Program-made: the position numbers and the translations under genes
The notes under the pieces: model-generated
Databases searched by the model: none
What the model was told of the DNA's origin: nothing
Seen by the model: the letters and a program-made list of their open reading frames with translations, nothing else
Shown: positions 8,996 through 30,757 of the stretch, piece by piece
Layout of the letters: each line of letters begins with the position of its first letter
How positions within the stretch are numbered: position 1 is the stretch's first letter
Source: Boletus sp. NGJ
Taxonomy: Eukaryota; Basidiomycota; Agaricomycetes; Boletales; Boletaceae
Reading direction: 5' to 3'
Assembly: GCA_019096195.1 (NCBI GenBank)
Contig: JAGTXK010000050.1
Span: 558,001-622,000, forward strand
DNA length: 64,000 bases

Positions 8996-9139
8996 GAAGA
9001 ACCTAGGACGAATCACTAGAACTAGCTATAAGTGACAAATAGCAATAGGAAGAGATGGATGCATACCTTAGTCAATGGATGACAGTGACTGAGGTATAAC
9101 AATCTGATGTGGCAATATAAATATATGACGCATCACATG

Positions 9140-9489
9140 TGAAACAAACACAGATATTTTCTCTAAAATTATAGTAGTTAGCTAGGACTTAGCAATCCCA
9201 CAAATGCTTATGTAGTTACTCTATACCTAGGCCTTAAGTCTAGACCATATGTCATACCTTAGTCAGACTACGTCACAACCCTATACCCATAGAACAGTCT
9301 AGACCCCACTACGTCACCATACATTATACAGAACATTCTAGTAGTTTCCATGCCGACCCTAAACTGAGGACTGTAGATAATATATAAGTAGCGTAGCAAC
9401 ACTTGTATTCGATAGCTTTGGAATTCCTTTTCTCTCTTTTGGATAGCGCACTTAGCACCCCTTGAGATATTAAGACTCTTTCCCTTTCA
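9140..9489 (+). repeat. 5' LTR of element D
   Basis: 350 bp, starting TGAAACAAAC and ending CTTTCA. It contains a TATA box (tatataagta, 9381-9390), with the predicted transcript start about 30 bases downstream near 9410. The bases at 9413-9425 are complementary to the primer site right after the LTR. It matches 15880-16229 almost throughout. Confidence 0.9.
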
Positions 9490-9502
9490 AATTTCAAAGC
9501 TA
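9490..9502 (+). other. Self-primer binding site of element D
   Basis: The 13 bases right after the 5' LTR (aatttcaaagcta) pair with LTR bases 9413-9425 (tagctttggaatt). Twelve pairs are Watson-Crick and one is G-U. The LTR partner lies at the predicted 5' end of the element transcript. This is the arrangement of Tf1/sushi-type self-primed reverse transcription. No tRNA match is evident. Confidence 0.7.
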
Positions 9503-10338
9503 TTACCTCGTCCCTGGGCTCTTCGCCTCTGGACACTTCTACCGCTCTACCCCTACTTGCTTTGCCTAGTTGGCGCAAACTTTTTGCCTGCTAGTACCAC
9601 TCTCATTTCCAACCCAGACTCTCCCCGCATCCATCCTCAGAGGAACTGAGGACTCTTGTTAGCGATAAGCATAATTCCAGCCTACTAGGTGGTGGCTAGC
9701 ACGAGATCATCCTCTACTGCAGGAGAAGATAAGGAGATACCAATCACTGTTCTCTCCCCTCCCTCCACTTCCGAACACGCGGGCTCTTCATCACTGTCCA
9801 GCCCTTGCCGGACCTTAGGCTTAGAGGAACCTGTTAGCGCTTGTGATGCACTCAAGTAAAGCACTCGTCGAAGTGCTTGTCTATATGCTCGTCCGGCGTT
9901 CTAAATAAGGATAACATTGCTACCGGGCATAGAGCACTAGCCCCGCTTCTTGGGTGGTTGTCGACCCAAGTGTACGTTGGCACTATGATAGTATGCTCAG
10001 GTTCGCGTGATCACCCATGATGTCACATAGCTATGACAAGGGGGTTTATCTCGCCTTCCCTCCATGTAGCACCTTCCTGTAGTAAGGAAGTTATCCTCTG
10101 GTTCCCTCACTTCCTGACTCTCCCACTTCTAGATGGTGTGCAGTCTTTCCTGCCGTTTTCTTTTTCAAGCTGCCATCAGAACAGACGCATTCCTACCAAG
10201 TTTTCCACTGCCGTTATGTCTGGGCTCACCCTGATTATAGCCTAGTCGTCCACACCACCCTCACCACCTACTTGCTGACGCTCACCCGGTGCGTACAAAC
10301 AATCACCCACCTAGCAGAACTCGCCAGGCTCCGCCACA
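9503..10338 (+). other. Untranslated leader of element D
   Basis: This lies between the primer site and gag. No host gene is supported. The same leader, in reverse orientation, is found in element E (about 29600-30380) and element F (about 25000-25815), with shared blocks such as gagcactagccccgcttct and ccaccctgaggtc-like segments. That confirms it belongs to the element. Confidence 0.6.
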
Positions 10339-11730
10339 ATGACCACCATACCGACCCTGTACAGCCGCCCCATCTCCACCACTCCCCCTGCTCCAGGGAG
10401 TTTCATGGATCTTGCCCAGAGGGCAGCAGCCCAGGGCCTACCTACCCTCCAACTGGCCCAGCTGGCCCCAATCCTCCCCATGGCCACCCACCTGCAGCGT
10501 GAGGTGGCGCAGTACAATTTACACCAGTTGGTGCTCCAATACAACATCTGGTGCCAGTAGTTCATGGCAGACCCAGAAGCGGCTGGACCACCACCCCCAA
10601 TCGAGGTTCCATGTGTAGACCCCCCCTCTCCGAGCCCCATCAGGGTCAATATTCTGTCACCCCCCAGAACACCCTGGGTCCCTCCACAGGGCCCTCCTCC
10701 TTCCCATCCTCTGCCATCCCTGCCATCACCCCCATCCCACCAGAATTCACCTGGGCTCCTGAGGGTGCCAGTGCATGGATTCCCTCCCACTTCCCCCTGA
10801 ATTGGGAAGAGTCTGGCCTCTAAGCCAGAACACTACGACAGGAACAAAGAAAAGTTCGTGCAATGGTGGCGCACAATGACCCTCTACTTGAGCGGCTTCG
10901 AGACGGAGCCAACCAACCAGCAAAAAATACTAATCACCCTCTCCTATATGCGAGGAGACAACGCTGCCAGAAGGTTCTCAGACTTGCTGGCCAAAGGCAA
11001 TGCTTATGCCCTCATCAGTTATGAGTTCTTTGTTGACAAGCTCAAGAAGACATTCCAACCCACCGGCCTCGCCAGGCAAGCCAAACAGAAACTCTTTTCC
11101 CTCCGGCAGGGGAAGGACACTGTTGAGGATTACTTTACCCAGCTATACCAATTAGCAATGGAGGCCAAATTCAATGTGCAGATCAATGGACAAATGATCA
11201 TCAATCAAATACACCACAGGTGCAGAACGACCTGGTGGAGTACGTTGAGAGGTATAAGCCTGATCTCATCGACTCGACCGACATTCGCGAGTGGGAGCAG
11301 GCCTTTGTATGGGCAGAAGAAGTGCTTGGCGCCATCGCAGAGCGCAAGAAAGCCACCTCTATCTACGCGACGGGTCCGATCTACAATCCATGCTTCACCC
11401 CCCGTCCTCGCTATGTCCCACCACCAACTGCTCCTCCCCCCTCGGCGCCCGCATCCTCAGCAGACCGGGACGTTCCCCAGACAAGGCACTCCTATGGAGC
11501 TCAACAAGGCACGCGCAGCCGGTTTATGCAGGAAGTGCAGAAAACTGTGGCCATGTGCAGACCACCCCCCCCGCCCTTGCCCACAGGTGAGAAGCATTAC
11601 AGTAAATGGACAGGAAGTGTCCTCTGACATGTTTGCAGCCATCCGGGCCATGATGGACTCAGTGGAAGTTCCTCAGGAGGAGCCTGTAGTATACACTTCG
11701 GATGTATCGGGTTTTCAATCTGTACAGTAG
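10339..11730 (+). pseudogene. Gag region of element D
   Basis: Encodes the Gypsy capsid region. Proline-rich N-terminal frames are followed by a segment with KFVQWWRTMTLYL, FSDLLAKGNAYA and QKLFSLRQGKDTVEDYFT, which is the retrotransposon gag domain. A C-terminal knuckle-like segment follows (CRKCRKLWPCADH, spacing C-x2-C-x5-C-x2-H). The same order is present in elements E and F. Broken fossil. Confidence 0.8.
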
Positions 11731-11762
11731 ATGCCAGTCAACCTACTATACCCCCTAAGTCA

Positions 11763-14700
11763 TTGTCAAAGAATAAATTCACAGTTCTAGACATTGACAA
11801 GACTGAAACCGAAAACTGTGTGAACCTCCCTGGCACTCCGCCAGTTAAAAACATAACCATCATGCTGCGAAAGGTGAAATTCACACCATCCGTGAAACTA
11901 GATGACGGACCAAACGATGCTGACACTATACCCCACAAACACCCCAAAGAAGTACAAAAGGAAGAGATGTCCTCTTATTCCTGGTTGAACATGTTAGACC
12001 CTTGGTCTATACATTGGATGAAGGCTCAGATGGAGAACATGGATGTAGAGCGAAGCATCCACCACCTCAAGTCCTTCATCCACAACACAGGACAATCGAA
12101 GTGTCTCGGGACCTCATACAGGACCTCCGAAAACTTTCCGACGAAGACGCATACTGGGTCCTCCATGACCTACAGCACACCCCAAAGTTCCGGAAAGCAT
12201 CCCCCTGATCGATCAAGCAAAACTCATTGGAGATCCCTGTTAAGGTGACCCTTGCAAACTGTCAGACCGCCAAAGTCAAGGCACTGATCAACTCAGGGTG
12301 CACCAGATCGTCCATACACAAGAAGTTTGTGGCTGAAAAGGGGGTACCCACCCACTAACTCCCCCATCCCCTCACCATATACAATGCCAACGGCACACCA
12401 AACACCAGAGGCAAAGTAGAAAGGTTCGTGATACTCAAACTCCAGGTCCACAACCACAAGGAACAGTTGGCCCTCGCCATAACAAACCTTAGGCCTAACA
12501 CGATATTCCTTGGTCACGATTGGCTGAAAACACATAACCCAGCCATCAACTGGAAAACAGGTAGAATCTCCTTCCGCTGTAAAGGAGATCACGTCACAAG
12601 TAACATAGATGAAAAGGAGGACGAGATGGACGTAGACTACATGCCCTCCCAGGGCAACCGCCTGTTTGAGCTCAATGTAGTAGAATACCTGAGCAATCAA
12701 AACGCCACCACAGAGGTAGCCATTAAGGACTATGCCCAAAAGAAAAAGAAAACCTTCAAGGAAGCCACACTGAAGTACGCCCACGAGTTTAAAGACGTCT
12801 TCGACAAAGAGAGTTTCGATGTGCTACCCCCAAGATGCCCTTGGGATCATGCTATTGAACTCCTCCTGGGAGACCATGAAGTAGACTGCAAAGTCTACCC
12901 CTTGAATCCCGGTGAGCAAAAAGAACTCAACGCCTTCCTTGAGGAGAACCTCAAATCTGGAAGGATACGACCCTCCAAGTCCCCCTTCGCGTTGGCATTC
13001 TTCTTCATCAAAAAGAAGGATGGATGCCTCCGCCCCATGCAAGATTACTGCAAACTAAATGCAGTGACGAAAAGAAACTGATACCCCCTCCCACTCATCA
13101 ACGAACTGGTCGATAAACTCAAGTCAGCCAGGTACTATACTAAGTTCGACATGAGATGGGGGTACAACAACATACAGATGGCTGAAGGAGACGAATGGAA
13201 GGCAGCCTTCCGAACAAACCATGGTCTATTCAAGCTGCTCATGATGTTCTTTGGACTCACCAACTCCCCAGCGACATTTCAAACCATGATGAACACGCTG
13301 TTTAAGAATTTGGTGGACCGAGGTGTAGTGGTCATCTACATAGACGATATCATGATATTCATGAAGACGCTCGAAGAACACCGGAAAGTAGTACGCGAAG
13401 TGCTACAAATCTTGAGGGACACCCACCTCTACCTACGTCATGACAAGTGCGACTTCAAAGTTCAAGAGACCAAGTTTCTTGGGCTTATCGTTGCGCAAGA
13501 CAAGATAAAGATGGACAGAAAGAAGGTGGAAGCCATCAAGAGCTGGCCAGTCCCCACCTCGAAGAAGACACTGAGAGGTTTCCTTGGATTCCTCAACTTC
13601 TACCGACGGTTCATCAAGAACTTCGCAATGATCGCGTGCCCCCTAAACGCGCTCACGTTGGTGAAGAAAGACTTTGAGTGGACAACAGCCTGCCAAGAGG
13701 CCTTCCAAACCCTCAAGGACACGATCTCCTCCGCCCTGGCGCTAGCCATGCCAACCAACAAAGACCCCTACCACATTGAAACCGACGGTTCTGACATAGG
13801 CATCGGCGCCATCCTCTTCCAACAACACGATGGTGTATGGCATCCCATCTCATTCATCTCCCGTTCCCTCAACAACACTGAGCAGAACTACCACGCAGCT
13901 GACCTGGAGATGCTCGCCATCATGTTCACTCTCAACGAATGGCGACAATACCTCCTTGAGACAGCACACCCAATTGAGATCTAAACGGATCACAAGAACC
14001 TCAAGTTCTTCCGCCGACCTCAAGACCTCACCCAACACCAGGCCAAGTGGCAACAAGTACTACAAGAATACCATGTAGTGATTAGCCACCAACCCAGCAA
14101 AACCAACCCTGCAGATCCTCTGTCCCGGAGGCCAGACTTCGAAAAGGGGGTGACATCTGACAACACTGCACAAACACTACTCCCTGACATGCTTTTTTCA
14201 CCTCCTCTGTCGCCAACCTCCACCACAGTCTCTCTCAAGGCCGTCATGCCAGCAAGCATGCTATCCAGAATCACCAAGATGCAGTACAAACTGGAGCAAT
14301 TTGCCAAAGATGGCCTGGGAAGGGAGAACTCACCCTGGACCTGCAAGGAAGGGCTCGTCCACTGGAAGTCACTCATATATGTGCCAAACGACATGAAACT
14401 CCAAGAGGACATCCTCATCGCTAACCATGACCACCCGATCGCTGGCCATCCCGGTATCTGGCAAACGCGTGACCTAATCATGAGTGAGTATTATTGGCCA
14501 TCACTACGTAGAGATGTGGAGTCATATGTAAAAGGCTGTGACACATGCCAGAAGGTTAAAGCCAAAACCTCGGCAATCAGCACACCGCTCCACCCAAACG
14601 AAATCCCATCATCCCTATGGGAGATCATCTCCGTAGATCTGTTCAGCCCCCTCCCCCAACCTGACGGCAAGAACGCCATCCTAGTCGTTGTCGATCATTT

Positions 14701-15868
14701 CTCGAAAATGATCCACCTAACACCGGTGATGGACACCATTACGTCACAAGGAGTCGCAACAATCTTCCACGATCAAATATTCAAACTCCATGGTGTCCCC
14801 TGCAAGGTGATCTTGGATTGAGGAACCTGATTCATGTCATCGTTTATGCACAACCTCTACTCCCTCCTTGGCATCGAAGCCAACCCATCTATGGCCTATC
14901 ACCCCCAAACTGACAGCCAGACGGAATGTGTCAACTGAGAAGTAGAGAAGTACCTGTGCATCTATGTTAACCATCGCCAAACCGATTGGGTAGAATGGCT
15001 ACCACTGGCCGAATTCACCCACAACTCCCAAACCACCAGCGCCATGGGCGTCTCACCATTCCTGCTCAACTACGGGCAGCAACCACTCATACCCAACAAA
15101 AGAGTGGAAGTGCGGAATGAGTCCACCACCTCCTTCGCCGAAACAATGAAAACACACCACAACTCGGCAAAGGACGCACTAGAGAAAGCAGCACAGGCGA
15201 TGAAAAAGTCACACGACAAACATGCCTCCCCCGTCATTGAATACACTGTTGGTCAGCAGGTCCTACTCAAAGGAACCCACATCCAGACTGACTGACCAAC
15301 AAAGAAATTCGACAACAAACGACACAGGCCATTCAGGGTGAAATGAAAGGTAGGTGAAGCCTCCTACGAGCTCGACCTCCCAAAGATGTGGAAGGGAATC
15401 CACCCTGTCTTCCATGAATCACTCTTCACGCCCTACCACCCCAGCACATCCCCCTCCCAGACGAAACCGAAACCGCCACCCCCGGTTATCGTCCAACAAC
15501 AAGAAGAGTATGAGGTCGAACACATCGCTGACTCATGTAAGCGACACGGTAAGACAGAGTATCTAGTACAGTGGAAAGGATACCCCCACAAGGAGCGCAC
15601 CTGGAAACCAAAGAAAAACGTCTCAAATGCCCCACAGGCGATCGAGAAGTTCCACCACGAAAACCCCACCACCATCCGCACCCTCACAGATGGCAAATGC
15701 AACTGCCCAACATGCGCGTTCCCCGGCACCCCACTATTTGATGACCCATCCTTCCACTTGTATGTGACATCCCTCAACTGCCTCCCCGACCACCTCTTCG
15801 AGATCCCCGAGCCCCATAGCGACGTAAAGCTCACCAGTATCATCGTCGACCGGGAGTTCAACAGCTAA
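11763..15868 (+). pseudogene. Pol region of element D (PR, RT, RNase H, integrase, chromodomain)
   Basis: Parts in order: aspartic protease near 12270-12400; RT from about 12900 to 13500 (IRPSKSPFALAFFFIKKKDG, VVVIYIDDIMIF); RNase H at about 13750-14080; integrase zinc-binding part near 14410-14560 (GHPGIWQTRDLIMSEYYW, CDTCQKVK) and core from about 14620; and a C-terminal chromodomain near 15510-15660 (EYLVQWKGYPHKERTWKPKK). The protease-RT-RNaseH-integrase order and the chromodomain place it in the Gypsy chromoviruses. Broken fossil. Confidence 0.85.
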
Positions 15869-15879
15869 AAAGGGGGTAA

Positions 15880-16229
15880 TGAAACGAACACAGATATTTT
15901 CTCTAAGATTATAGTAGTTAGCTAGGACTTAGCAATCCCACAAATGCTTACATAGTTACCCTATACCTAGGCCTTAAGTCTAGACCATATGTCATACCTT
16001 AGTCAGACTACGTCACAACCCTATACCCATAGAACAGTCTAGACCCCACTACGTCACCGTACGTCATACAGAACATTCTAGTAGTTTCCATGCCAACCCT
16101 AAACCAAGGACTGTAGATAATATATAAGTAGCATAGCAACACTTGTATTCGGTAGCTTTGGAATTCCTTTTCTCTCTCTTGGATAGCGCACTTAGTGCCC
16201 CTTGAGATATTAAGGCTCTTTCCCTTTCA
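15880..16229 (+). repeat. 3' LTR of element D
   Basis: 350 bp, preceded by the polypurine tract aaaaagggggtaa and followed by the duplication acatg. It differs from the 5' LTR at about 17 positions by hand count, mostly C/T and G/A. Confidence 0.9.
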
Positions 16230-16327
16230 ACATGTGACTACAAGATGACAAAATATATGTGCTTGGTGACGCACTGCAGTAGAGATAGCAATAATAGAGC
16301 AAGTAGGATAGCAAGAAGTCCAATGAT

Positions 16328-16686
16328 TGAAAGAGAAAAGCCTTAATATCCTTAGGGGCACGAAGAGTGCTATCCACAGGAGAGAAAAGGAATTTCAAGA
16401 CTAAAGAATACAGGTGTTGGTATGTTACTTTATATACGTAGGGAGATATGCATGGACCAGCTTAGGGCTGGTCGTGGAAACTACTGGAATGTTCCATATG
16501 ATGTATGGTGACATAGTGGAATCTAGACTGTTCTAGGGGTATTGGGTTATGACGTAGTCTGACTAAGATATGACGTGTGGTCTGGGCCTAAGGCCTAGAT
16601 CCAAGATAACTATGTAAGCATTCGTGGGATCGTTAAGTGTTAGCTAACTATGATAAATAAGGAGAAAATGTCTGAAAGTCCTTTCA
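16328..16686 (-). repeat. 3' LTR of element E
   Basis: 359 bp. On the reverse strand it starts TGAAAGGAC and ends CTTTCA. The polypurine tract of the element follows in plus orientation as ttaccccctttttagg. It is the partner of 30394-30752. The block at 16391-16403 corresponds to the 5' end of the transcript. Confidence 0.9.
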
Positions 16687-18922
16687 TTACCCCCTTTTTA
16701 GGCGTCGAACTCCCGGTTGACGATGATACCAGTGAGCTTGGGGTCGCTGAGAGGATTGGGGATTTCGAAGAGGCAGTCGGGGAGGCGATTCAGTGATGCG
16801 GCGTATGAACGGAAGGAAGGGTCGTCGAATAGGGGGGTATCTGGGAGCATGCACGTGGGGCAGTTGCACTCATCGTTTGTGAGGGTGTGGACAGTGGTGG
16901 GGTTTTGGTGATGGAATTTCTCGATTGCCTGTGGGGCATGGGAGACATTCTTCTTGAGTTCCCATGTACGCTCTTCTCAGGGGTATCCCTTCCATTGTAC
17001 CAAGTATTCCATTTTACCGTGTCGCTTGCATGAGTCAGTGACGTGTTCGACCTCATACTCTTCTTGTTGTTGGACAATAACTGGTGGTGGTGGCTTCGGT
17101 CTCGTCTGGGAGGGGGAGGTGCCAGGATGGTAGGGTGTGAGGAGTGATTCATGGAAGACAGGGTGAATTCGCTTCCACGTTTTTGGGAGGTCGAGCTCGT
17201 AAGAGGCCTCGCCTACCTTTCGCTTCACCCGGAATGGTCCGTGTTGTTTATCATTGAATTTTTTTGTTGGCTGGTCGGTCCAGATGTGGGTTCCTTCTAG
17301 TAGGACCTGTTGGCCAACGGTGTATTCGACGGCGGGGGAGGCGCATTTGTCATGTGAGGTTTTCATCGCTTGTGCCGCTTTTTCCAGCGTGTCTTTTGCC
17401 AAGTTGTGGTGGGTTTTCATTGTCTTGGTGAAGGAGGCGGCAGACTCGTTTTGTACCTCTACTCATTTGTGGGGCAGGAGTGGTTGTTGCCCGTAGTTGA
17501 GTAGGAAGGGCGAGACGCCAGTAGTGCTGGTGGTCTGAGAGTTATGGGCGAATTCAGCTAGTGGTAGCCACTCTGCCCAGTTGGTTTGGCGATGGTTCAC
17601 ATATATGCATAGGTACTTTTCCACTTCTCGGTTGATGCGCTCTGTCTGGCCATCGGTCTGGGGGTGGTAGGCCGTGGATGGGTTGGCATTGATGCTGAGG
17701 AGGGAATAGAGGTTGCGCATAAAGGACGACACGAATTGGGTTCCTCTGTCTGAGATCACCTTTCGCGGGATGCCGTGGAGTTTGAATATTTGATCATGGA
17801 AGATCATCACGACTCCTTGTGATGTAATGGTGTCCATTACGGGCATGAGGTGGATCATTTTAGAGAACCGATCAATGACGACCAGGATGGCATTCTTGCC
17901 GTCAGATTGGGGGAGGGGGCCGATTAAATCTACGGAGATGATTTCCCATGGGGATGATGGGATTTCATTTGGGTGGAGCGGGGTGTTGATTGCCGAGGTT
18001 TTGGCTTTAACCTTTTGGCAGATATCACAACCTTTTACGTATGACTCCACATCTATTCGTAGGGACAGCCAGTAATATTCGCTCATGATTAAGTCACACG
18101 TTTGTCAGATACCAGGATGGCCGGCGATTGGGTGGTCACGGTTCGCAATTAGGATGTCTTCTCAGAGTTTCGCGTCGTTTGGCACGTATATGAGTGATTT
18201 CCAATAGACGAGTCCTTCCTTGCAAGTCCAGTGTGACTCTTCTTTCTCTAAGCCGTCTTTAGCAAACTGCTCGAGTTTATATTGCATCTTGGTGATTCTC
18301 GTGAGTGTGCTTGCGGGCACAATGGCTTTGAGAGAGACTGTAGTGGAGGTTGGTGAGGGGGGAGGGGAAAAAAGGGCATCGGGGAGTAGTGTCTGTGCGG
18401 TGTTATCAGCTGTCACCCCCTTTTCGAAGTCTGGCCTCCTGGATAGAGGGTCGGCTGGGTTTGTTTTGCTGGGTCAGTGGCTGATAACTACATGATACTC
18501 TTGTAGTACCTGTTGCCAACGGGCCTGGCGGCGTGTGAGATCCTGGGGTTTGTGGAAGAACTTGAGGTTTTTGTGATCCATCCAGATCTTGATTGGGTGT
18601 GCAGCTTTGAGGAGGTACTGATGCCATTCATTGAGTGCAAACATGATGGAAAGCATTTCCAGGTCGGCTGCATGGTAGTTCCGCTCTACATCATTGAGGG
18701 AACGGGAGATAAAGGCGATGGGGTGCCATACACTGTTGTGTCGCTGGGAGAGGATGGCACCGATGCCGATGCCAGAACCGTCAGTTTTGATGTGGTAGGG
18801 GTCGTTGTCAGTTGGCATGGCCAGCGTCAGGGCGGAGGAGACAGTGTCTTTGAGGGTTTGGAAGGCTTCTTGGCAAGCCGATGTCCACTCGAAGTCTTTC
18901 TTTACCGATGTGAGCGCGTTTA
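16687..18922 (-). pseudogene. Element E pol, 3' half: chromodomain, integrase, RNase H
   Basis: Reverse-strand frames show the chromodomain (near 16980-17060, MEYLVQWKGYP), integrase core (17463-18086, IISVDLIGPLP, VISDRGTQFVSSFM), the zinc-binding part (CDICQKVK) and RNase H (18474-18920, LTRRQARWQQVLQEYHVVISH). The stretch ends at the insertion point of element F and continues on the far side at 26194. Broken fossil. Confidence 0.85.
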
Positions 18923-18927
18923 GGGGG

Positions 18928-19290
18928 TGAAAGGAAAGAGACCTCAATATCACACGGGACGCGAAGGGCGTAATCCGAGTGGGAGAAGAGGAATTCCAAG
19001 ACTAGCTAATACAACGTTGTGACGCTACTCATATACTGACTACTCGTGGGCACGGACCAGCTTAGGGCCGGTCGTGGAACCTACTAGAATGTTCTCGTAT
19101 GACGTACGGTGACGTAGTGGGGTCTAGCCTGTTCTATGGGTATAGGGTTATGACGTAGGCTGACTAGTGTGTGACGTATGGTCTAGACGTAAGGTCTAGG
19201 TATAATGGTAACTACGTAAGGTGTTCGTGGGATTGTCTAAGTGTTAGCTAACTACGTAAATAAAGGAGAAAATCGTCCAAGTTCGTATCA
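18928..19290 (-). repeat. 3' LTR of element F
   Basis: 363 bp, next to the polypurine tract (ttaccccctttctagcc in plus orientation). It is the partner of 25829-26188. The transcript-start block complementary to the primer site is at 18992-19004. Confidence 0.9.
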
Positions 19291-22200
19291 TTACCCCCTT
19301 TCTAGCCATCGAACTCCCGGTCGATGATGATACCGGTAAGCTTGACGTCGCTGTGGGGTGTAGGGATCTCGAAGAGTCGGTCGGGGAGGCGGTTTAAGGA
19401 GGCCGCGTACGAGCGGAAGGATGGGTCGTCGAATAGGGGGGTTTCGGGGAACGCGCAGGTTGGGCAGTCGCACTCGTCGTCGGCGAGGGTGCGAATGGCG
19501 GTGGGGTTTTCTCGGTGGAACTTCTCGATCGCCTGCGGGGCGTTTGAGACGTTCCTTTTGGGTTCCCATGTGCGTTCCTCGCGGGGGTATCCCTTCCACT
19601 GTACGAGGTACTCGGTTTTGCCGCGTCGCTTACGTGAGTCGGCGACGTGCTCCACTTCATACTCTTCTTGCTGTTGGACGATAACCGGGGGGGGTGGTTT
19701 CGGTTTCGCCTGCGAGGGGGAGGTGCCCGGGTGGTAGGGCGTGAGGAGCGACTCGTGGAATACTGGGTGGATCCCCTTCCACGTCCGCGGGAGGTCTAGC
19801 TCGTAGGAGGCCTCGCCTACCTTTCGCTTCACCTTGAATGGGCCGTGTCGTTTGTCGTCGAATTTCTTTGTCGGGCGGTCGGTTCGGATGTGAGTTCCTT
19901 CGAGTAGAACCTGTTGCCCGACGGTGTATTCGACGGCGGGGGATGCGCGTTTGTCGTGCGCCTTCTTCATCGCTTCTGCCGCTTTTTCCAGCGCGTCCTT
20001 GGCCGAGTTGTGGTGGGTTTTCATTGTTTCGGCGAAGGCGGCGGCGGATTCGTTCCTCACTTCCACTCGTTTGTTCGGGTATGAGTGGTTGCTGTCCGTA
20101 GTTGAGCAGGAAGGGGGAGACGCCGGTCGCGCTGGTGGTCTGCGAGTTGTGGGCGAATTCGGCTAGGGGTAGCCATTCGGCCCAGTCGGTTTGGCGATGG
20201 TTGACGTAGATGCAGAGGTACTTCTCTACCTCTCGGTTGATGCGTTCCGTCTGACCGTCGGTCTGGGGATGGTAAGCGGTAGACGGGTTCGCTTGGATGC
20301 CGAGGAGAGAGTAGAGGTCGCGCATGAACGACGACACGAATTGCGTTCCTCGGTCGGAGATCACTTTGCGGGGGACACCGTGGAGTTTGAAGACTTGGTC
20401 GCGGAAGATCGTCGCGACTCCTTGCGACGTTATGGTGTCCATCACCGGGGCTAAGTGGATCATTTTTGAGAAACGATCGACGATGACCAGAATGGCGTTT
20501 TTGCCATCTGATTGGGGGAGGGGGCCGATCAGGTCGACGGAGATGATCTCCCAGGGGGATGATGGGATCTCATTTGGGTGGAGTGGTGTGTTGATTGCCG
20601 AGGTTTTGGCTTTAACCTTTTGGCATGTATCACACCCTTTGACGTATGTCTCCACGTCGCGTCGAAGCGAGGGCCAGTAGTATTCGCTCATGATCAAATC
20701 ACGAGTGCGCCGGATGCCGGGATGGCCGGCGATCGGATGATCATGGTTCGCGATGAGGATGTCCTCTCTGAGTTTCGCGTCGTTTGGCACGTAAACGAGC
20801 GACTTCCAGTGGACAAGCCCGTCTTTGCGGGTCCAGGGGGAGTCCTTCTTCTCTAGGCCTTCCTTGGCGAACTGCTCAAGTTTGTATTGCATTTTCGTGA
20901 TTCTTGAGAGTGTGCTCGCTGGCGTGACGGCCTTGAGGGAGACTGTCGTGGAGGTAGGTGATGGTGGGGGCGAAAAAAGGGCGTCAGGCAGTAGTGTCTG
21001 CGCGGTGTTATCGGATGTCACCCCCTTTTCAAAGTCTGGCCTCCTGGACAGAGGATCCGCGGGGTTTGTTTTGCCCGGGCGGTGGCTGATGACTACATGG
21101 TATTCCTGTAGCACCTGTTGCCAGCGGGCCTGGCGGCGGGTGAGATCTTGGGGTTTGCGGAAGAACTCGAGGTTCTTGTGATCCGTCCAGATCTCGATTG
21201 GGTGGGCTGCCTCGAGGAGGTATTGTCGCCATTCGTTGAGGGCGAACATGATCGCTAGCATCTCGAGGTCAGCGGCGTGGTAGTTCCGCTCAGCGTCGTT
21301 GAGGGAGCGGGAGATGAACGCGACGGGGTGCCATATGCCGTCGTGTCGTTGGGAGAGGATGGCGCCGATGCCAATGCCCGAGCCGTCGGTTTCGATGCGG
21401 TAGGGGTCGTTGTCGGTGGGCATGGCGAGCGCCGGGGCGGAGGAGATGGTGTCTCTTGAGGGTTTGGAAGGCCTCTTGGCAGGCCGTCGTCCACTCGAAG
21501 TCCTTCTTCACCGACGTGAGCGCGTTGAGGGGGCGCGCTATCATCGCGAAGTTCTTGACGAACCGTCGGTAGAAGTTGAGGAATCCGAGGAAACCTCGAA
21601 GCGTCTTTCTTCGAAGTGGGGACGTTGGCCAGCTCCTGATGGCTTCCACCTTCTTCTCATCCATCTTCACCTTGTCTTGTGCGACGATGAGCCCGAGGAA
21701 CTCGGTCTCTTGGACCTCGAAGTCGCATTTGTCGTGGCGCAGGTAGAGGTGCGCGTCGCGGAGGATTTGTAGCACTTCGCGTACTACCTTGCGGTGTTCT
21801 TCGAGTGTCCTCGTGAATATCATGATATCGTCTATGTAGACGACCACTACGCCTCGGTCCACCAGGTGTCTGAACAGCGCGTTCATCATCGTTTGGAACG
21901 TCGCTGGAGAGTTGGTGAGCCCGAAGAACATCACGAGGGGCTCGAAATAGCCCGCGATTGGTTCGGAAGGCGGCCTTCCACTCGTCGCCTTCTGCCATCC
22001 GTACATTGTTGTACCCCCATCTCACATCGAACTTCGTGTAGTATTTGGCCGACTTGAGTTTGTCGACCAGTTCGCTTATGAGCGGGAGCGGGTAGCGGTT
22101 GCGTTTTGTTACCGCGTTCAGCTTGCGGTAGTCTTGCACGGGGCGGAGGCGTCCGTCTTTCTTCTTGATGAAGAAGAAGGCCGATGCGAAGGGCGATTTG

Positions 22201-23426
22201 GAGGGTCGTATCCTCCCGGATTTAAGGTTCTCCTCGAGGAAGGAGTCGAGCTCTTTTTGTTCGCCGGGGTTGAGGGGGTAGACCTTGCAGTCCACCTCGT
22301 GGATTCCCGGGAAGGAGCTCGATGGCGTGATCCCAAGGGCGTCTCGGGGGTAGCGCATCGAAGCTTTCCTTGTCGAAGACGTCCTTGTATTCGTGGACGT
22401 ACTTCGGGGCGGCTTCCTCGAAGGTCTTCTTCTTTTTCTGGACGTAGTCTTTAATGGCCACCTCGGTGGCGACGTTTCGATTTCGCATGTAGTCTACTAC
22501 ATCGAGTTCGAACAGTCGGTCGCCTTGGGAGGGCATGTAGTCTACGTCCATCTCGTCCTCCTCCTCGTCTACGTTGCTCACGGTCGTGATCCCCTTTGCA
22601 TCTGAAGGAGATTCTCCCGGTCTTCCAGTTGATGGCTGGGTTGTGCGATCTTCAGCCAGTCGTGTCCAAGGAACACGGTGTTAGGCCCGAGGTTGGTTAC
22701 TGCGAGGGCCAATTGCTCCTTGTGGTCGTTCACCTGGAGTTCGAGGATCACGAATTTCTCTACCTTGCCTCCGGCGTTTGGCGTGCCATCGGCGTTGTAG
22801 ACGGTGAGGGGACGGGGGAGGGAGTGCGTTTTTAGCCCCTTTTCAGCCACGAACTTCTCGTGGATGGATGATCCGGTGCAACCCGAGTCGATCAGCGCCT
22901 TGACGTTGGCGGTCTGTCGGTTCGGGAGGGTCAGTTTGACGGGGATCTCCAGCGAGTTTCGCTTTCGTGGAGCGGGGGGATGCTTTCCGGAATTTCGGGA
23001 GCGTGCTGTAGGTCGTGGAGGACCCAGTACGCCTCTTCGTCGGAAAGTTTTCGGAGGTCCTGCACGAGGTCCCGAGATACTTCGATCGTCCTGCTGTCGT
23101 GGACGAAGGACTTCAGGTGGTGGATGCTGCGGTCAACATCCGTGTTCTCCACTTGTGCCTTCATCCAACGTATAGACCAGGGGTCCAACGTGTTCAGCCA
23201 GGAACGAGAGGACATCTCTTCCTTTCGTGCCTCCTTAGGGATGTTTGCGGGGGATGGTGTCCGCATCATTCGGGCCGTCGTCTCGCTTTACGGACGGCGC
23301 GAATTTCACCTTTCGCGGCATGATGGTTAGTTGTTTTGCGGGCGGGGTGCCCGGTAGGTTCACGCGCTCCTCACTTTCGTCTTCAGTCTCGTCAATGCTT
23401 AGAACAGAGAACATGTTATTGCGCAA
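19291..23426 (-). pseudogene. Pol region of element F
   Basis: Reverse-strand frames, in transcript order: a short region with DETEDESEERVNLPGTPPAK (about 23240-23426), protease region near 22850, RT at about 21650-22360 (VYIDDIMIFTRTLEEHRKVV), RNase H at about 21100-21420, integrase at about 20070-20700 (GCDTCQKVKAKTSAINTPLH, VISDRGTQFVSSFM) and a chromodomain near 19530-19640 (EYLVQWKGYPREERTWEPKR). Broken fossil. Confidence 0.85.
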
Positions 23427-23461
23427 TGACTTAGGTGGCGGTACAGCAGGTCGACTGGTGT

Positions 23462-25243
23462 CTACTGTACAGACTGAAAACCCGAGTCACTTTGTACATC
23501 GGGCGCGTACACTACTTGCTCCTCCTGGGGAGCCTCTGCGGAGTCCATCATGCTCCTGATTGTCGCAAACATCTCGGGGGAAACCTCCTGGCCGTTGACC
23601 GTAATGCTCCTCGCCTGAGGGCGAGGGCGGGGCGGGTGGTCGGCGCAGGGCCAGGGTTTCCTGCATTTTCGGCACAGTCCAGCTGCGCGTGCCTTGTCTA
23701 GCTCCATAGGAGCGCCTTGTCCGGGGAAGGTCCCGGTTTGCTGAGGGTGCGGGCGCACGTAGGGGGCGCCGAGGGGGGCGGGCGAGTAGGCAGGGGGGGC
23801 GGCGGGCGGTGCGTATGGGAGCGGGGGCGCGGGACGAAGCGGGGGTTGTAGGTGGGGCCGGTGGCGTAGACGTTGGAGGTTCTCTTGCGCTCCGCGATGG
23901 CGCCGAGTACCTCCTCTGCCCGCACCAGGGCGGTCTCCCACTCACGGACGTCGGTGGAGTGTCGATGAGGTCAGGCTTGTACCTCTCGACGTACTCAACC
24001 AGCTCGTTCCGGGCTTGGTGCTCGAATCTGGTTGACGATCGTCCGCCCGTTGATCCTCACGTCGAATTTGGCCTCGATGGCCAGCTGGATACAAGTCGCG
24101 TGAAGTAGTCCTCCACGGTGTCCTTCCCTTGGCGAAGGGAGAACAGCTTTCTGTTCAGCCAGGCGAACGAGGCCGGCGGGTTGGAACGTCTTCTTGAGCT
24201 TTTCGCGACGAAGAACTCGAAGTTGACGGCTGCGTATGCGTCACCTTCCACCAGAAGGTCTGAGAACCGCCCAGCGGCATTGTCACCTCGCATGTAGGAC
24301 AGGGTGATGAGGATCTTTCTGCCGGTCGGTCGGCATGCTCTCGAAAGCCGTTCAGGTAGAGGGTGACGGTCCTCCACCATTGCACGAACTTTCTCCTTGT
24401 TCCCGTCGTAGTGCTCGGGTTTAGCGGCCAGGCTCTTCCCTATCCTCGGGGAGGTCGGGGGGAAAGCCACGTGCGGCGGGCCGCGGGATCCCAGGTGAAC
24501 TCGAGTGGGAGGGCGAGCTCGGCTGTGGGGGCGAGGGGAGCGGGCGCGAGGGAGCTGGGCCCTGCGGTGGGACCAGTCGGGGAGTCCTCCCTGGAGAAGG
24601 GATGCTGGACTCGGATACCGTGAGCTCGGGGAGGGGACTGCGTGTGCGGCTGCGGGAGGGTCCACTCTCGGCAGCTCGATTGGAGGGGGCGGTCCAGCCG
24701 CTGCGGCGTCGGCCGCGAACGCTTGGCGCCACAGGTTGTAGCGCAGGACGGATTGGTGCAGGAGGTACTGCGCTGTGTCCTCTTGGCGGGTAGGGGACGG
24801 AGGGGCCTGCGGTAGGGGGGATCGAGGCATTGCTGGTGGGGTAGGCTGGACCAACTGGAGGGTAGGCAGGCCCTGGGCTGCCGCCCGGTTGGCCAGGTCC
24901 CTGAAGCTGCCCGGGGCCGGGGCGACGGACGCGGGGCGCGAGTACGGCTGTTGGGAGGGTGACGTGGCTCATCTCGTCTAAGTCCGGCGAGCTGAGCAAG
25001 TCGGGTGATTGTTCGGTGGCGGTGGTCGTGCGTGGAGTAGGTGGTGAGGACTGTGTGGATTACGAATGAGTAGTCGGGGTGTACCCAGACGTAGCGGCGT
25101 CTGAATACGTTGTACGTGCGGGGGGTGTCTGAAGGCAGATCTGCAAAAAATAACGGCGGGAAAGACCGCGCACCGTCAGGAAATGGGAGAGTCGAGCGAT
25201 AGGAACCGGAGGATAACTCTCTTACTACAGAGAGGTGGTGCAC
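23462..25243 (-). pseudogene. Gag region of element F
   Basis: Reverse-strand frames carry the gag domain (TVTLYLNGFREHADRP, QKLFSLRQGKD-type segment), a proline-rich N-terminal part and the C-terminal knuckle-like segment CRKCRKPWPCADHPP. This is the same layout as gag of D and E. Broken fossil. Confidence 0.75.
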
Positions 25244-25815
25244 GCCCCAAAGTCGAGGTAAATGGGGTTATCGCACCTACGTGACGTTACGGGTAATCAC
25301 GCGAACCCGGGTCCACTATCGTAGCACCAGCGTACGCTCTGGTCGGCAACCACCAGAGAAGTGGGGCTAGTGCACTATGCCCGACAGCAACTTTATCCTT
25401 ATTTGTGACGCCGGACGAGCGTATATGCAAGCGTTTCGCCGAGTGCTTTACTCGCGTACGTCACGTGTACGAGCGGGTTCCCTCAAACCTGAGGTCCGGT
25501 ATAGGGGTGAACGGCGGCGACGAGCCCACACGTTCGGAAGTGGATGGAGGGAGTGAGAAACGAGACCCTAACTCCTTGATTCGTTCCCTGCAGCTGAGGG
25601 GGAGTTCCGCGCTAGCAACCGCCGTATAGGTCCGGTATTACGCTTATCGCTAACGGAGGTCCCTCGGTTCCTCTGAGGGTCAGATGCGGGGAGTGTCGAG
25701 AGTCAGAGAAGCGGGAGCGGTACTAGGGGGCAAAAAGTTTGCTCGCACTAGGCAAAACAGTAGGAGGTGGAAGAGGGAGGAAGTGTCCGGAGGCGAAGAG
25801 CCCGGGGACGAGGAA

Positions 25816-25828
25816 TAGTCTTGGAATT
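25816..25828 (-). other. Self-primer binding site of element F
   Basis: On the reverse strand the 13 bases right after the 5' LTR read aattccaagacta. They pair perfectly with the LTR block at 25892-25904 (tagtcttggaatt in transcript sense). Compared with D, two adjacent bases differ on both sides of the helix, and pairing is kept. Confidence 0.75.
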
Positions 25829-26188
25829 TGAAAGGAAAAGACCTCAATATCACATGGGACGCGAAGGGCGTAATCCGAGCGAGAGAAGAGGAATTCCAAG
25901 ACTAGCTAATACAAGCGTTGTGACGCTACTTATATACTACCTACTCGTGAGCACGGACCAGCTTAGGGCCGGTCGTGGAACCTACTGGAATGTTCTCTAT
26001 GACGTAGAGTGACGTAGTGGGGTCTAGCCTGTTCTATGGGTATAGGGTTGTGACGTAGGCTGACTAGTGTGTGGCGTATGGTCTAGACGTAAGGTCTAGG
26101 TATAATGGTAACTACGTAAGGCGTTCGTGGGATCGTCGAAGTGTTAGCTAACTATGTAAATAAAAGAGAAAACGTCTAATTCGTATCA
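25829..26188 (-). repeat. 5' LTR of element F
   Basis: 360 bp, ending at the ggggg duplication. It differs from 18928-19290 by about 18 substitutions and 5 small gaps (hand count). A TATA-like block (tatata, about 25931) precedes the transcript-start block in element orientation. Confidence 0.9.
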
Positions 26189-26193
26189 GGGGG

Positions 26194-28080
26194 CATGCGA
26201 TCATGGCAAAGTTCTTTACGAATCGTCGGTAGAAGTTGAGGAATCCTAAGAATCCTCTTAGCATCTTCTTCAAGGTGGGGACTGGCCAGCTTTTGATGGC
26301 CTGCACTTTCTTGTCGTCCATCTTTACCTTGTCTTGTGCCACAATGAGTCTGAGGAACTCAGTCTCTTGGACCTCGAAGTTGCACTTGTCGTGACGCAGG
26401 TAAAGGTGGGCATCCCTCAGGATTTGTAGCACTTCTCATACTACTTTTCGGTGTTCTTCGAGTGTCTGCATGAATATCATGATATCGTCTATGTAGACGA
26501 CCACTACGCCTCGGTCTACCAAATTCTTAAACAATGTGTTCATCATGGTTTGGAACGTTGCTGGAGAATTGGTGAGTCTGAAGAACATCACGAGCGGCTC
26601 GAACAGACCGTGGTTGGTTCGGAAGGCTGCCTTCCATTCGTCTCCCTCGGCCATTCGTATGTTATTGTACTCCCATCTCATGTCAAACTTAGTGTAGTAT
26701 TTGGCTGATTTGAGTTTATCGACCAGCTCATTGATGAGGGGGAGGGGGTAACGATTTCTTTTTGTCACCACGTTTAACTTGCGGTAATCTTGTACGGGGC
26801 GGAGGCGTCCGTCTTTCTTTTTGATAAAGAAGAACGCCGAGGCGAAGGGGGATTTGGAGGGTCGTATTCTCCCAGATTTGAGATTCTCTTCGAGGAAGGC
26901 GTTGAGTTCCTTTTGTTTGCTGGGATTGAGAGGGTAAACCTTACAGTCTACTTCATGGTTTCCCGGGAGGAGTTCGATGGCATGGTCCCAGGGGTGTCTC
27001 GGGGGTAGGGCATCGAAACTCTCCTTGTCGAATACGTCTTTGAACTCGTGGACGTATTTTGGGGTGGCTTCCTTGAAGGTTTTCTTCTTTTTCTGAATGT
27101 AGTCTTTAATCGCTACTTCTGTTGCAACATTTCGACTCCTCATGTATTCTACTACATTGAGTTCGAATAAGCAATTGCCCTGCGAGGGCATGTAGTCTAC
27201 ATCCATTTCGTCCTCCTCTTCATCCACATTGTTCGTGGCGTGGTCTCCCTTACAGTGAAAGGAGATCCTACCTGTTTTCCAGTCGATGGCTGGGTTGTGA
27301 GTCTTCAGCCAGTCGTGACCAAGGAATATCGTGTTCAGCCCAAGGTTTGTTACTGCAAGGGCCAATTGTTCCCTGTGATCGTGTACCTGGAGTTCGAGTA
27401 TCACGAACTTTTCTACTTTGCCTCCGGCATTTGGCATGCCATTGGCGTTGTATATGGTAAGGGGACAGGGGAGGGAGTGGGTACCCCCTTTTTAGCTACG
27501 AAGTCCTCGTGTATAGAAGATTCCGTGCAGCCTGAGTCAATCAACACTTTGACCTCGGCTTTTTGGTGATTCGCAAAGGTCACCTTGACAGGAATTTCTA
27601 GCGAGTTTCTCTTTGCTGTTCGAGGGGATGCCTTTCAGAACTTGGGTGTGTGTTGTAGGTCATGGAGGACCCAGTATGCATCCTCATTCGAGAGTTTTCG
27701 GAGGTCTTGTACGAGGTCCCGAGACACTTTGATCACTTTGGTGTCGTGGACGAAGGACTTGAGGTGGTGGATACTTTGTTCTACATCCGTGTTTTCCACC
27801 TGAGCCTTCATCCAACGTATAGACCAGGGGTCTAATGTGTTCAACCAAGAGTGAGAGGACGTCTCTTTCTTTTGTACCTCCTTTGGGTGTTTGCAGGGGA
27901 TGGTATCAGCGTTGTTCGGTCCATCGTCTCGTTTTACCAACAGTGCGAACTTTACCTTCCGTGGCATGATGGTTATGCTTTTTGTGGGTGGTGTGCCAGG
28001 GAGATTCACTCGGTTTTTTGTTTCAGTCTCGTCAATGTCTAGAACAGCAAATCGATTTCGTGACAATGACTTAGTGGGTA
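26194..28080 (-). pseudogene. Element E pol, 5' half: protease and RT
   Basis: Reverse-strand frames: a short region with DETETKNRVNLPGTPP (about 27635-28066), protease region near 27500, RT at about 26200-27000 (FASAFFFIKKKDGRLRPVQDYRKL, read in parts; VVVYIDDIMIFMQTLEEH). It continues the frame interrupted at 18922. Broken fossil. Confidence 0.85.
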
Positions 28081-28098
28081 CAGTAGAGTGACTGGTAT

Positions 28099-29574
28099 CT
28101 ACTGTACAGATTGAAAACCCGAATCTTCCTGTACATTTGAAGCATAAACTACAGGCTCCTCTTTGGAAGCCTCAGCCGAGTCCATCATAGCTTGTATTGT
28201 AGCAAACATACTGGGGGAAACCTCTTGTCCATTTACCGTTATGCTCCTCGCTTGTGGGCGAGGGCGGGGTGGGTGGTCGGCACACAGCCATGGTTTCCTA
28301 CATTTTCTGCACAGCCCAGCTGCGCGCACCTTGTCAAGCTCCATGGGAGTGCCTTGCCCGGGGAACGTCCCAGTTTGTTGGGGGTGTGGACGCACTGTGG
28401 GCGTCAAGGGGGGCGGTGTGGCGGGCAGATTGTAATGGGGGCATGGTACGAATTGAGGGTTGTAGGTGGGGCCCGTTGCATAGATGGAAGAGGCCTTCTT
28501 GCACTCCGCAATGGCGCCAAGTACCTCTTCTGCCTGTACGAGGGCGGTCTCCCACTCACGGACATCTGTACTGTCAATAAGATCCAGCTTGTACCTCTCT
28601 ACGTACTCCACCAGGTCGTTTTGAGCTTGGTGGCAGATCTGGTTCACAATCATCCAGCCGTTGATTCGTACATCGAATTTGGCCTCTATTGCCAGTTGAT
28701 ACAGCCGAGTGAAGTAATCCTCAACAGTGTCTTTCCCCTGCCGGAGGGAGAAGAGCTTCTGTTCAGCCATTCTGGCGAGGCCAGCGGGTTGGAAGGTTTT
28801 CTTCAACTTCTCAGTGAAGAATTTGAAGCTTACTGCGGCATAGGCATTGCCTTCAGTAAGGAGATCAGAAAAGCGGCCAGCCGCATTCTCACCGTGCATG
28901 TACAAGAGGGTGATCAGGACTTTTTGGCAGTCGGTGGGACTCCGTCTCGAAGCCATTGAGGTATAAGGTTACTGTACACCACCATTGTACAAATTTTTCC
29001 TTGTTGCCGTCGTAATGCTCCGGCTTAGCCGCGAGGCTCTTCCCTATCTTCGGGGACATAGGGGGAAAAGCCACGCGCTGCGGCCCTCAGGAGCCCAGGT
29101 GAACTCGGGTGGGAGGAGGGTGACGGCGGGGATGGCAGCGGACGGGAAGGAGGAGGGGACCTGCAGCGGGTAGTGGGGCTGGAACTGGGGTGTTCTCGCG
29201 GGGGACGGTATGTTGACCCGAATGGTGTGGCTCGGGGAGGCCAGCATGGAGGGATCTGGAGTGGGGGGGTCCACGCGAGGAACCTTGATTGGAGGCAGTG
29301 GTCCAGCCGCTTCTGGATCTACCACGAACTCCTGACGCCAGAGGTTGTACCAGAGCACCGACTGGTGCAAATTGTATTGGGTGACCTCTTGTTGCAGGTG
29401 TGTCGTGACGGGGGTGTGCGGAGTTGAATGGGCCATCTGGAGGGTTGGGAGGCCTTGGGCTGCGGCTCTCTGGGCGAGATCCGTGAAACTGCCCGGGGCC
29501 AGGGCGGTGGAGGTGGGGCGAGAGTACGGGCTGGGGATTGTGGTCATCTCGTCATAGTCCGGCAATTTCGGCAA
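28099..29574 (-). pseudogene. Gag region of element E
   Basis: A 285-codon frame (28099-28956) carries the gag core (KVLITLLYMHGENAAGRFSD, EQKLFSLRQGKDTVEDYFT) and the segment CRKCRKPWLCADHPP. A proline-rich N-terminal part lies at 29044-29574. Same layout as D and F. Broken fossil. Confidence 0.8.
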
Positions 29575-30380
29575 GATGTGTGATGGTTCAGAGACGGTGA
29601 GTGTGCGAGGGGTAGGTTGTCAAGATGGTGTGGACGACGAAGATATAGTCAGGGTGTGCCCAGACGTATCATCGGCGGAAGACGTTATAGGTGTGGGGGG
29701 AATCTGAAGGCAGCTTGAAAAAGAAGAGGGCGGGAAAGACCGCACACCATCAAGAAGTGGGAGAGTTGAGTGGAGGAACTGGAGGATAACTTCCCTACTA
29801 CAGGAAGGTGGTGCACACCGGGAAAGTCGAGATAAATCCCAGCTATCACACCTATGTGACATTACCGGGTGATCACACGAACCCGGGGTACACTATTGTA
29901 GTACCAACGTACGCCCTGGTTGACAACCACCAGAGAAGCGGGGCTAGTGCTCTATGCCCGGTAGCAACGTTATCCTAACTTATTATGCTGGACAGGCATA
30001 TAGACAAGCGCTTCTACGAGTGCTCTACTCGAGTGCTTCACATGCACTAGTGGGTTCCCCTAAACCTGGGGTCCGGTATGGGGTGAGTGGCGGCAAAGAG
30101 CCCACGCACTCAGAAGGTGGATGGAGGAATGAAAAAGATGACTCCTAACTCCTTATTGTCGCTCGCAGCTGCGACGAGACTCCACACTTGCAACCACTGT
30201 AATAAGCTGGAATTACGCGTAACGCTAACGGAGGGTTGCGGTTCCTCTGGAGCTAGATGCAGGGAGTGTTGGGGTCAAAGACTGGAGCAGTACTAGAGAG
30301 CAAAAAGTTTGCTCTGTTAGGCAAAAAGCGATATAGACGGGAGGAAGTGTCCGGAGGCGAAGAGCCCGGGGACAAGGTAA

Positions 30381-30393
30381 TAGTCTTGAAATT
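30381..30393 (-). other. Self-primer binding site of element E
   Basis: On the reverse strand the bases right after the 5' LTR read aatttcaagacta. They pair perfectly with the LTR block at 30457-30469 (tagtcttgaaatt in transcript sense). The helix differs from that of D at two adjacent pairs and from that of F at one pair. Confidence 0.75.
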
Positions 30394-30752
30394 TGAAAGA
30401 GAAAAGCCTTAATATCCTTAGGGGCGCGAAGAGTGCTATCCACAGGAGAGAAAAGGAATTTCAAGACTAAAGAATACAGGTGTTGGTACGTTACTTTATA
30501 TACGTAGGGAGATATGCATGGACCAGCTTAGGGCTGGTCGTGGAAACTACTGGAATGTTCCATATGACATATGGTGACATAGTGGGGTCTAGACTGTTCT
30601 AGGGGTATCAGGTTATGATGTAGTCTGACTAAGTTATGACGTGTGGTCTGGGCCTAAGGCCTAGATCCAAGATAACTATGTAAGCATTCGTGGGATCGTT
30701 AAGTGTTAGCTAACTACGATAAATAAGGAGAAAATGTCTGAAAGTCGTTTCA
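30394..30752 (-). repeat. 5' LTR of element E
   Basis: 359 bp, followed by the duplication atgat (30753-30757). About 12 differences from 16328-16686. At two places (near the atgacgtatgg and tatcggg blocks) one LTR carries TG and the other CA where the related element F has CG. That is the expected outcome of independent CpG decay on either strand. Confidence 0.9.
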
Positions 30753-30757
30753 ATGAT

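Follow-up and report, generated by a model that had tools for sequence, protein, structure and literature searches.

Covariation between a block of the LTR and the adjoining primer site points to self-priming in a high-copy chromodomain Gypsy family of Boletus sp. NGJ

Identifying the molecule that starts reverse transcription is crucial to understanding how an LTR retrotransposon propagates, and three Gypsy copies (D, E and F) in one stretch of the Boletus sp. NGJ genome raise the question of whether an element can supply its own primer. The window analysed here, i.e., the whole stretch of DNA, comprises 64,000 nt of contig JAGTXK010000050.1 (positions 558,001-622,000, forward strand). A sequence-only reading had noticed that in all three copies the 13 bases immediately downstream of the 5' LTR can pair with a block inside the LTR, had seen no evident tRNA primer site, and had taken Tf1/sushi-type self-priming as the natural interpretation. 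We checked D, E and F base by base and read their target duplications by eye. The 5-bp duplications (ACATG for D, ATCAT for E and CCCCC for F) set the LTR ends, and the putative primer-binding site therefore begins with the base that follows the 5' LTR.

Copy D lies on the plus strand. Its 5' LTR (TGAAAC...CTTTCA, 9140..9489) follows the duplication ACATG at 9135-9139 and contains the self-primer block, the predicted RNA 5' end, at 9413..9425; the primer-binding site at 9490..9502 pairs with 9413-9425 with one G-U, located at helix position 9. Open stretches encode reverse transcriptase and RNase H (13082..13984; Pfam RVT_1 and RT_RNaseH_2) and a chromodomain (15347..15868; Pfam Chromo, 2.5e-16), followed by a polypurine tract (15867..15879) and the 3' LTR (15880..16229, block at 16153-16165), with ACATG again at 16230-16234. 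The other two copies lie on the minus strand. F has its 5' LTR at 25829..26188 (duplication CCCCC, 26189-26193), its block at 25892..25904, its primer-binding site at 25816..25828 and its 3' LTR at 18928..19290 (block 18992-19004; CCCCC, 18923-18927), and an open stretch at 19302..20162 contains SH3_Tf2-1 and a chromodomain (Pfam PF24626, 58.8 bits; PF00385, 60.9 bits). For E, the corresponding features are the 5' LTR at 30394..30752 (duplication ATCAT, 30753-30757), the block at 30457..30469, the primer-binding site at 30381..30393 and the 3' LTR at 16328..16686 (block 16391-16403; ATCAT, 16323-16327). We confirmed that E and F pair perfectly, that the two adjacent base pairs swapped between D and E/F are positions 4 and 5, on both sides of the helix, and that the further pair differing between E and F is position 9, again on both sides. 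At 16323-30757, F is nested inside E with the duplication CCCCC, so E is the older insertion. Elsewhere in the window, a 135-bp unit forms a tandem array of about 9.7 copies (33974-35281), and its 45-residue translation presumably resembles TPR-like repeat proteins.

The family domains recognised by Pfam are gag, reverse transcriptase, RNase H, integrase and chromodomain, with Chromo, the C-terminal integrase chromodomain expected of Tf1/sushi-type chromoviruses, present in D and F and SH3_Tf2-1 above the cut-off in F and below it in D. D, E and F are members of a high-copy chromodomain Ty3/Gypsy family, which agrees with their earlier assignment to the chromoviruses. Among 120 listed of 3413 homologs, the organism names are those of Agaricomycetes except for one amoeba, Planoprotostelium; Armillaria, Phanerochaete, Amanita, Lentinula, Leucocoprinus, Trametes and Auricularia are the genera named in this set.

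To collect the family, we scanned the genome for a 22-base anchor that lies beyond the site, allowing 3 mismatches; the anchor shares no letters with the helix and thus avoids picking copies by their pairing. The anchor occurs at 93 places, including D (L030), E (L032) and F (L031), and 91 of these are family members with the block upstream. The remaining two (L099 and L101) have neither a block nor an LTR end, and we judged them chance matches and dropped them; since the block was found by the family pattern with two mismatches allowed, any copy whose block had diverged strongly would be discarded in the same way. A DNA search with L100 added a divergent relative, L133, bringing the collection to 92 copies; two LTRs without a site from the same search (L134 and L135) were not counted. 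L100 and L133 belong to a distant sister group and share 73% identity across the stretch that matched.

Pairing is nearly complete across the collection. The 92 copies provide 1196 helix cells, which are not independent because many copies are related, and 1184 of them are Watson-Crick pairs, 4 are G-U and 8 are unpaired. Perfect helices, of seven types, occur in 80/92 copies, and the other 12 have one defect each. Among the 85 distinct aligned copies, 99.4% of cells pair, as opposed to 19.6-55.7% in controls with one strand slid 1-3 columns, and 79 cells are changed on both sides, compared with a mean of 19.7 in shuffles and 0 in the slid controls; these both-side changes occupy 5 of the 13 helix pairs. 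In L100 and L133 the helix letters are different and pairing is still perfect. Covariation of the two blocks, which the sequence-only reading had proposed to look for across the family, is thus found in the 92 copies, and matching changes occur on both sides in copies beyond the original three. The number of further pair types in the helix and stems was no higher than in shuffles, and rare variants per site (0.42 in the helix, 0.69 in other non-CpG columns and 0.56 in CpG-bearing columns) are too close to argue from.

The ends of the helix bear on where the RNA would begin. The next position on the inside pairs in 0/92 copies and the next on the outside in 18/92. Four of the 12 helix defects sit at position 1 (binomial P of about 0.01), a hint that transcription may begin with the A at position 2, which would make a 12-base primer. 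A TATA-like box, for which several spellings were permitted, is present 31-35 nt upstream of the block in 89/92 copies and 41 nt upstream in one. In the two others, L034 and L036, another repeat occupies this region. We considered whether these were captured promoters and rejected the idea, as what stands there is the terminal part of a different high-copy LTR-like repeat, whose 20-base pattern has 279 matches in the genome (up to 2 mismatches). At 12 loci with this repeat, 10 continue into unlike sequences and two (L144 and L145) into the same one; nested insertion is therefore likelier in L034 and L036, possibly near the transcription start. The foreign repeat occurs in pairs about 7.4-7.5 kb apart in several contigs, and its end is also seen in the window at 3437-3456 with 2 mismatches.

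Unconstrained consensus folding recovers the primer helix together with a stacked CCUY:RAGG stem and a nested hairpin. Over the 25 pairs that include the nested stems, 98.9% of cells pair and 243 carry changes on both sides, whereas the slid controls reach no more than 53.1% and 8, respectively; these counts are somewhat favoured by the structure having been derived from the same alignment. All three copies in the window adopt this fold (z = -1.1, -3.4 and -4.9 for D, E and F, respectively), and the fold energy of D is unremarkable (z = -1.08, 26/200 shuffles as good). With respect to the pretzel fold, the primer helix and one R-U5 stem covary. The third duplex of the Tf1 pretzel, between the site-flanking leader and the LTR, was not found by covariation in the Boletus family; the strongest candidate in the leader, with 11 both-side-changed cells, is a local hairpin.

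Taken as a Tf1/sushi-type element, the family would prime reverse transcription with the 5' end of its own RNA, a reading to which we assign a probability of roughly 0.92 and which is supported by the family-wide covariation, the TATA spacing, the chromodomain and SH3_Tf2-1, and the lack of a match among the tRNA genes compared. The anatomy, the pairing, its covariation and the absence of a match among the compared tRNAs are established here, and we infer the transcript start (from the TATA box), the cleavage and the use of the primer. Transcription would start at the 13-base block, about 32 nt past the TATA box, and the RNA would fold back to pair its initial 12-13 bases with the 13 bases immediately downstream of U5. 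The CCUY:RAGG stem and the nested U5 hairpin would stack upon the primer helix, and the 13-15 nt of U5 beside the site would stay unpaired and serve as template. As in Tf1, RNase H would then cleave beyond the helix, and a short stretch of RNA would remain as the primer.

How the match between block and site is kept is a separate question. Flank trees built with the helix left out, in four versions, gave 27, 34, 35 and 30 inferred double changes, which are rough counts given recombination between copies and shallow, poorly resolved trees (of 89 inner branches, 21 are starred and 38 open; some long branches join). One-sided changes number 12 in every version, each confined to a single copy, and none among the 92 copies was inherited by a group of two or more. 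Their direction, inferred from neighbouring types, shows no bias, with 6 changes in the block and 6 in the site. At positions 3, 4, 5 and 9, block and site changed on the same branch 6, 5, 6 and 7 times, against null means of 0.9, 0.7, 0.8 and 1.4. We also conducted a tree-free test with 89 copies (L097, L100 and L133 excluded) and 22 common variants between block and site, counting the four combinations when each occurs in two or more copies. All four marker/block combinations were present for 18, 12, 15 and 6 of the 22 markers at positions 3, 4, 5 and 9, whereas block and site were mixed in only 0, 0, 1 and 4 of the 89 copies. We also considered decay after insertion as a source of the one-sided changes: both LTR blocks of D are identical and its site differs, and in L036 a block about 6.4 kb downstream, taken as the 3' LTR, matches the site.

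The sequence-only reading had held that compensatory change implies selection on pairing. That step goes too far, since selection is not the sole possible cause of matched double changes: if the self-primer is itself copied into new DNA, the site comes to match it without selection. During retroviral replication the primer tRNA is copied by plus-strand DNA, so that one strand of the new copy bears the old site and the other a copy of the primer, according to the passages of PMC7472051 and PMC5371799 cited here. There is in our view an even chance that the primer site of the Boletus family is rewritten in each round, when plus-strand DNA copies the attached 5' RNA primer. A mutation at the RNA start would then pass into the site in one step, and block and site would evolve in concert. 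Self-primer copying predicts matched double changes and few inherited halves. This is the pattern observed; the lack of inherited half-changes agrees with primer copying and does not prove it.

Strong selection against halves predicts nearly the same pattern, and we hold the two readings at about even odds. Selection alone, whereby a mutation on one side impairs the copy until a chance change on the other side restores the match, is the standard reading of compensatory change, and we rate it just under evens. In its favour, the U5 stems, which are beyond the reach of primer copying, covary too. Less easily accommodated are the 12 one-sided changes, all in single copies, against 27-35 double changes, and the rarity of G-U intermediates in the primer helix relative to stems 3-5 (wobble:double events of 4:27 in the helix versus 21:20 in stems 3-5 on one tree, and 4:34 versus 25:34 on another, P of about 0.001 in both). 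The low wobble in the primer helix is a weak argument against selection alone, owing to CpG decay in stems 3-5, to stem 2 also being without wobble (4-5 double events), and to the inherited wobbles in stems 3-5 numbering only 2 and 1.

Apparent covariation on flank trees could also arise if an R-U5-site cassette moved between copies by template switching, which we consider improbable. The open branches of the flank trees would allow for it, and the four-combination markers point to recombination or repeated change. Against it, the markers between the two blocks are scrambled relative to both ends, and copies whose U5 is only 0-3 differences apart have different perfect helices (e.g., L024/L043 and L026/L029). 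Moreover, cassette transfer leaves the first origin of each matched pair unexplained.

Far less probable is a DNA-level role for the two blocks, e.g., as a protein-binding site, instead of an RNA helix. Binding sites can be inverted repeats, as is generally known; here, however, the site begins exactly at the LTR edge, the block lies at the expected transcript start, and the nested stems of the same RNA covary. The remaining alternative was addressed by comparing 7 copies with 52 tRNA genes (48 distinct), extending an earlier comparison of 32 genes with 6 copies; the 52 genes occupy 50 loci, of at least 61 listed places, which leaves some room for a host tRNA. Priming by a host tRNA, with an incidental self-match, is the least credible of these explanations, as neither comparison gave a match at the primer site. 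For the 52 host tRNA genes, 3' ends match at most 6/12 bases at the site and at most 8/12 in the 40 bases that follow the LTR, and the longest pairing with a tRNA (9-10) falls in the range given by shuffles. Moreover, tRNA priming does not predict a site that varies together with the LTR block.

Self-priming itself, which we prefer, is already known, including a proposal for a basidiomycete element, and is treated as common to Tf1/sushi elements in the cited passages of PMC10085805 and PMC6317226; what is new is the scale of the covariation and the argument on primer inheritance. As described in the portions of PMC7175516 and PMC10085805 used here, Tf1/Tf2 of Schizosaccharomyces pombe are likewise chromodomain Gypsy elements in which the RNA begins with a sequence complementary to the site adjoining the 5' LTR and the 5' region has extra RNA structure. 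Their helix is 11 bp, compared with 13 bp here (12 if transcription starts at the A), and primer use is reported for Tf1, whereas for the Boletus family we infer it. Tcn1 of Cryptococcus neoformans is also a basidiomycete Gypsy element proposed to self-prime (PMC7175516, in a passage citing Goodwin and Poulter 2001); the two are likened by description, and the tests here rest on 92 copies. Self-primer/site complementarity and pretzel-type folds are shared by Tj1 and Tosmo/Tcry of fission yeasts, which the cited parts of PMC4600332 and PMC10085805 describe element by element, without covariation among the copies of one genome. Ty3, a solved-structure match (7q5b), is a Gypsy element as well. 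Unlike the Boletus family, Ty3 and Ty1 are tRNA primed, and their primer sequence is not inherited, as stated in the passages of PMC5371799 and PMC7472051 cited here. In the open-licence literature searched, we found no earlier report of covariation on this scale or of the argument on primer inheritance, and no answer as to whether self-primed elements inherit their primer.

In the literature excerpted here, self-priming rests on the Tf1 experiments and elsewhere mainly on sequence complementarity. With 92 copies and seven perfect helix types, a single genome offers a natural mutation series in which to ask what each base contributes and by what means block and site stay matched, and a known but thinly documented mechanism becomes easy to test. 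Many copies can separate slow compensation by selection from one-step rewriting, which a single element cannot. If true, rewriting would mean that a Gypsy element inherits its primer as retroviruses do, in contrast to Ty1/Ty3 with their strict inheritance of the site, and would make self-primed elements self-correcting.
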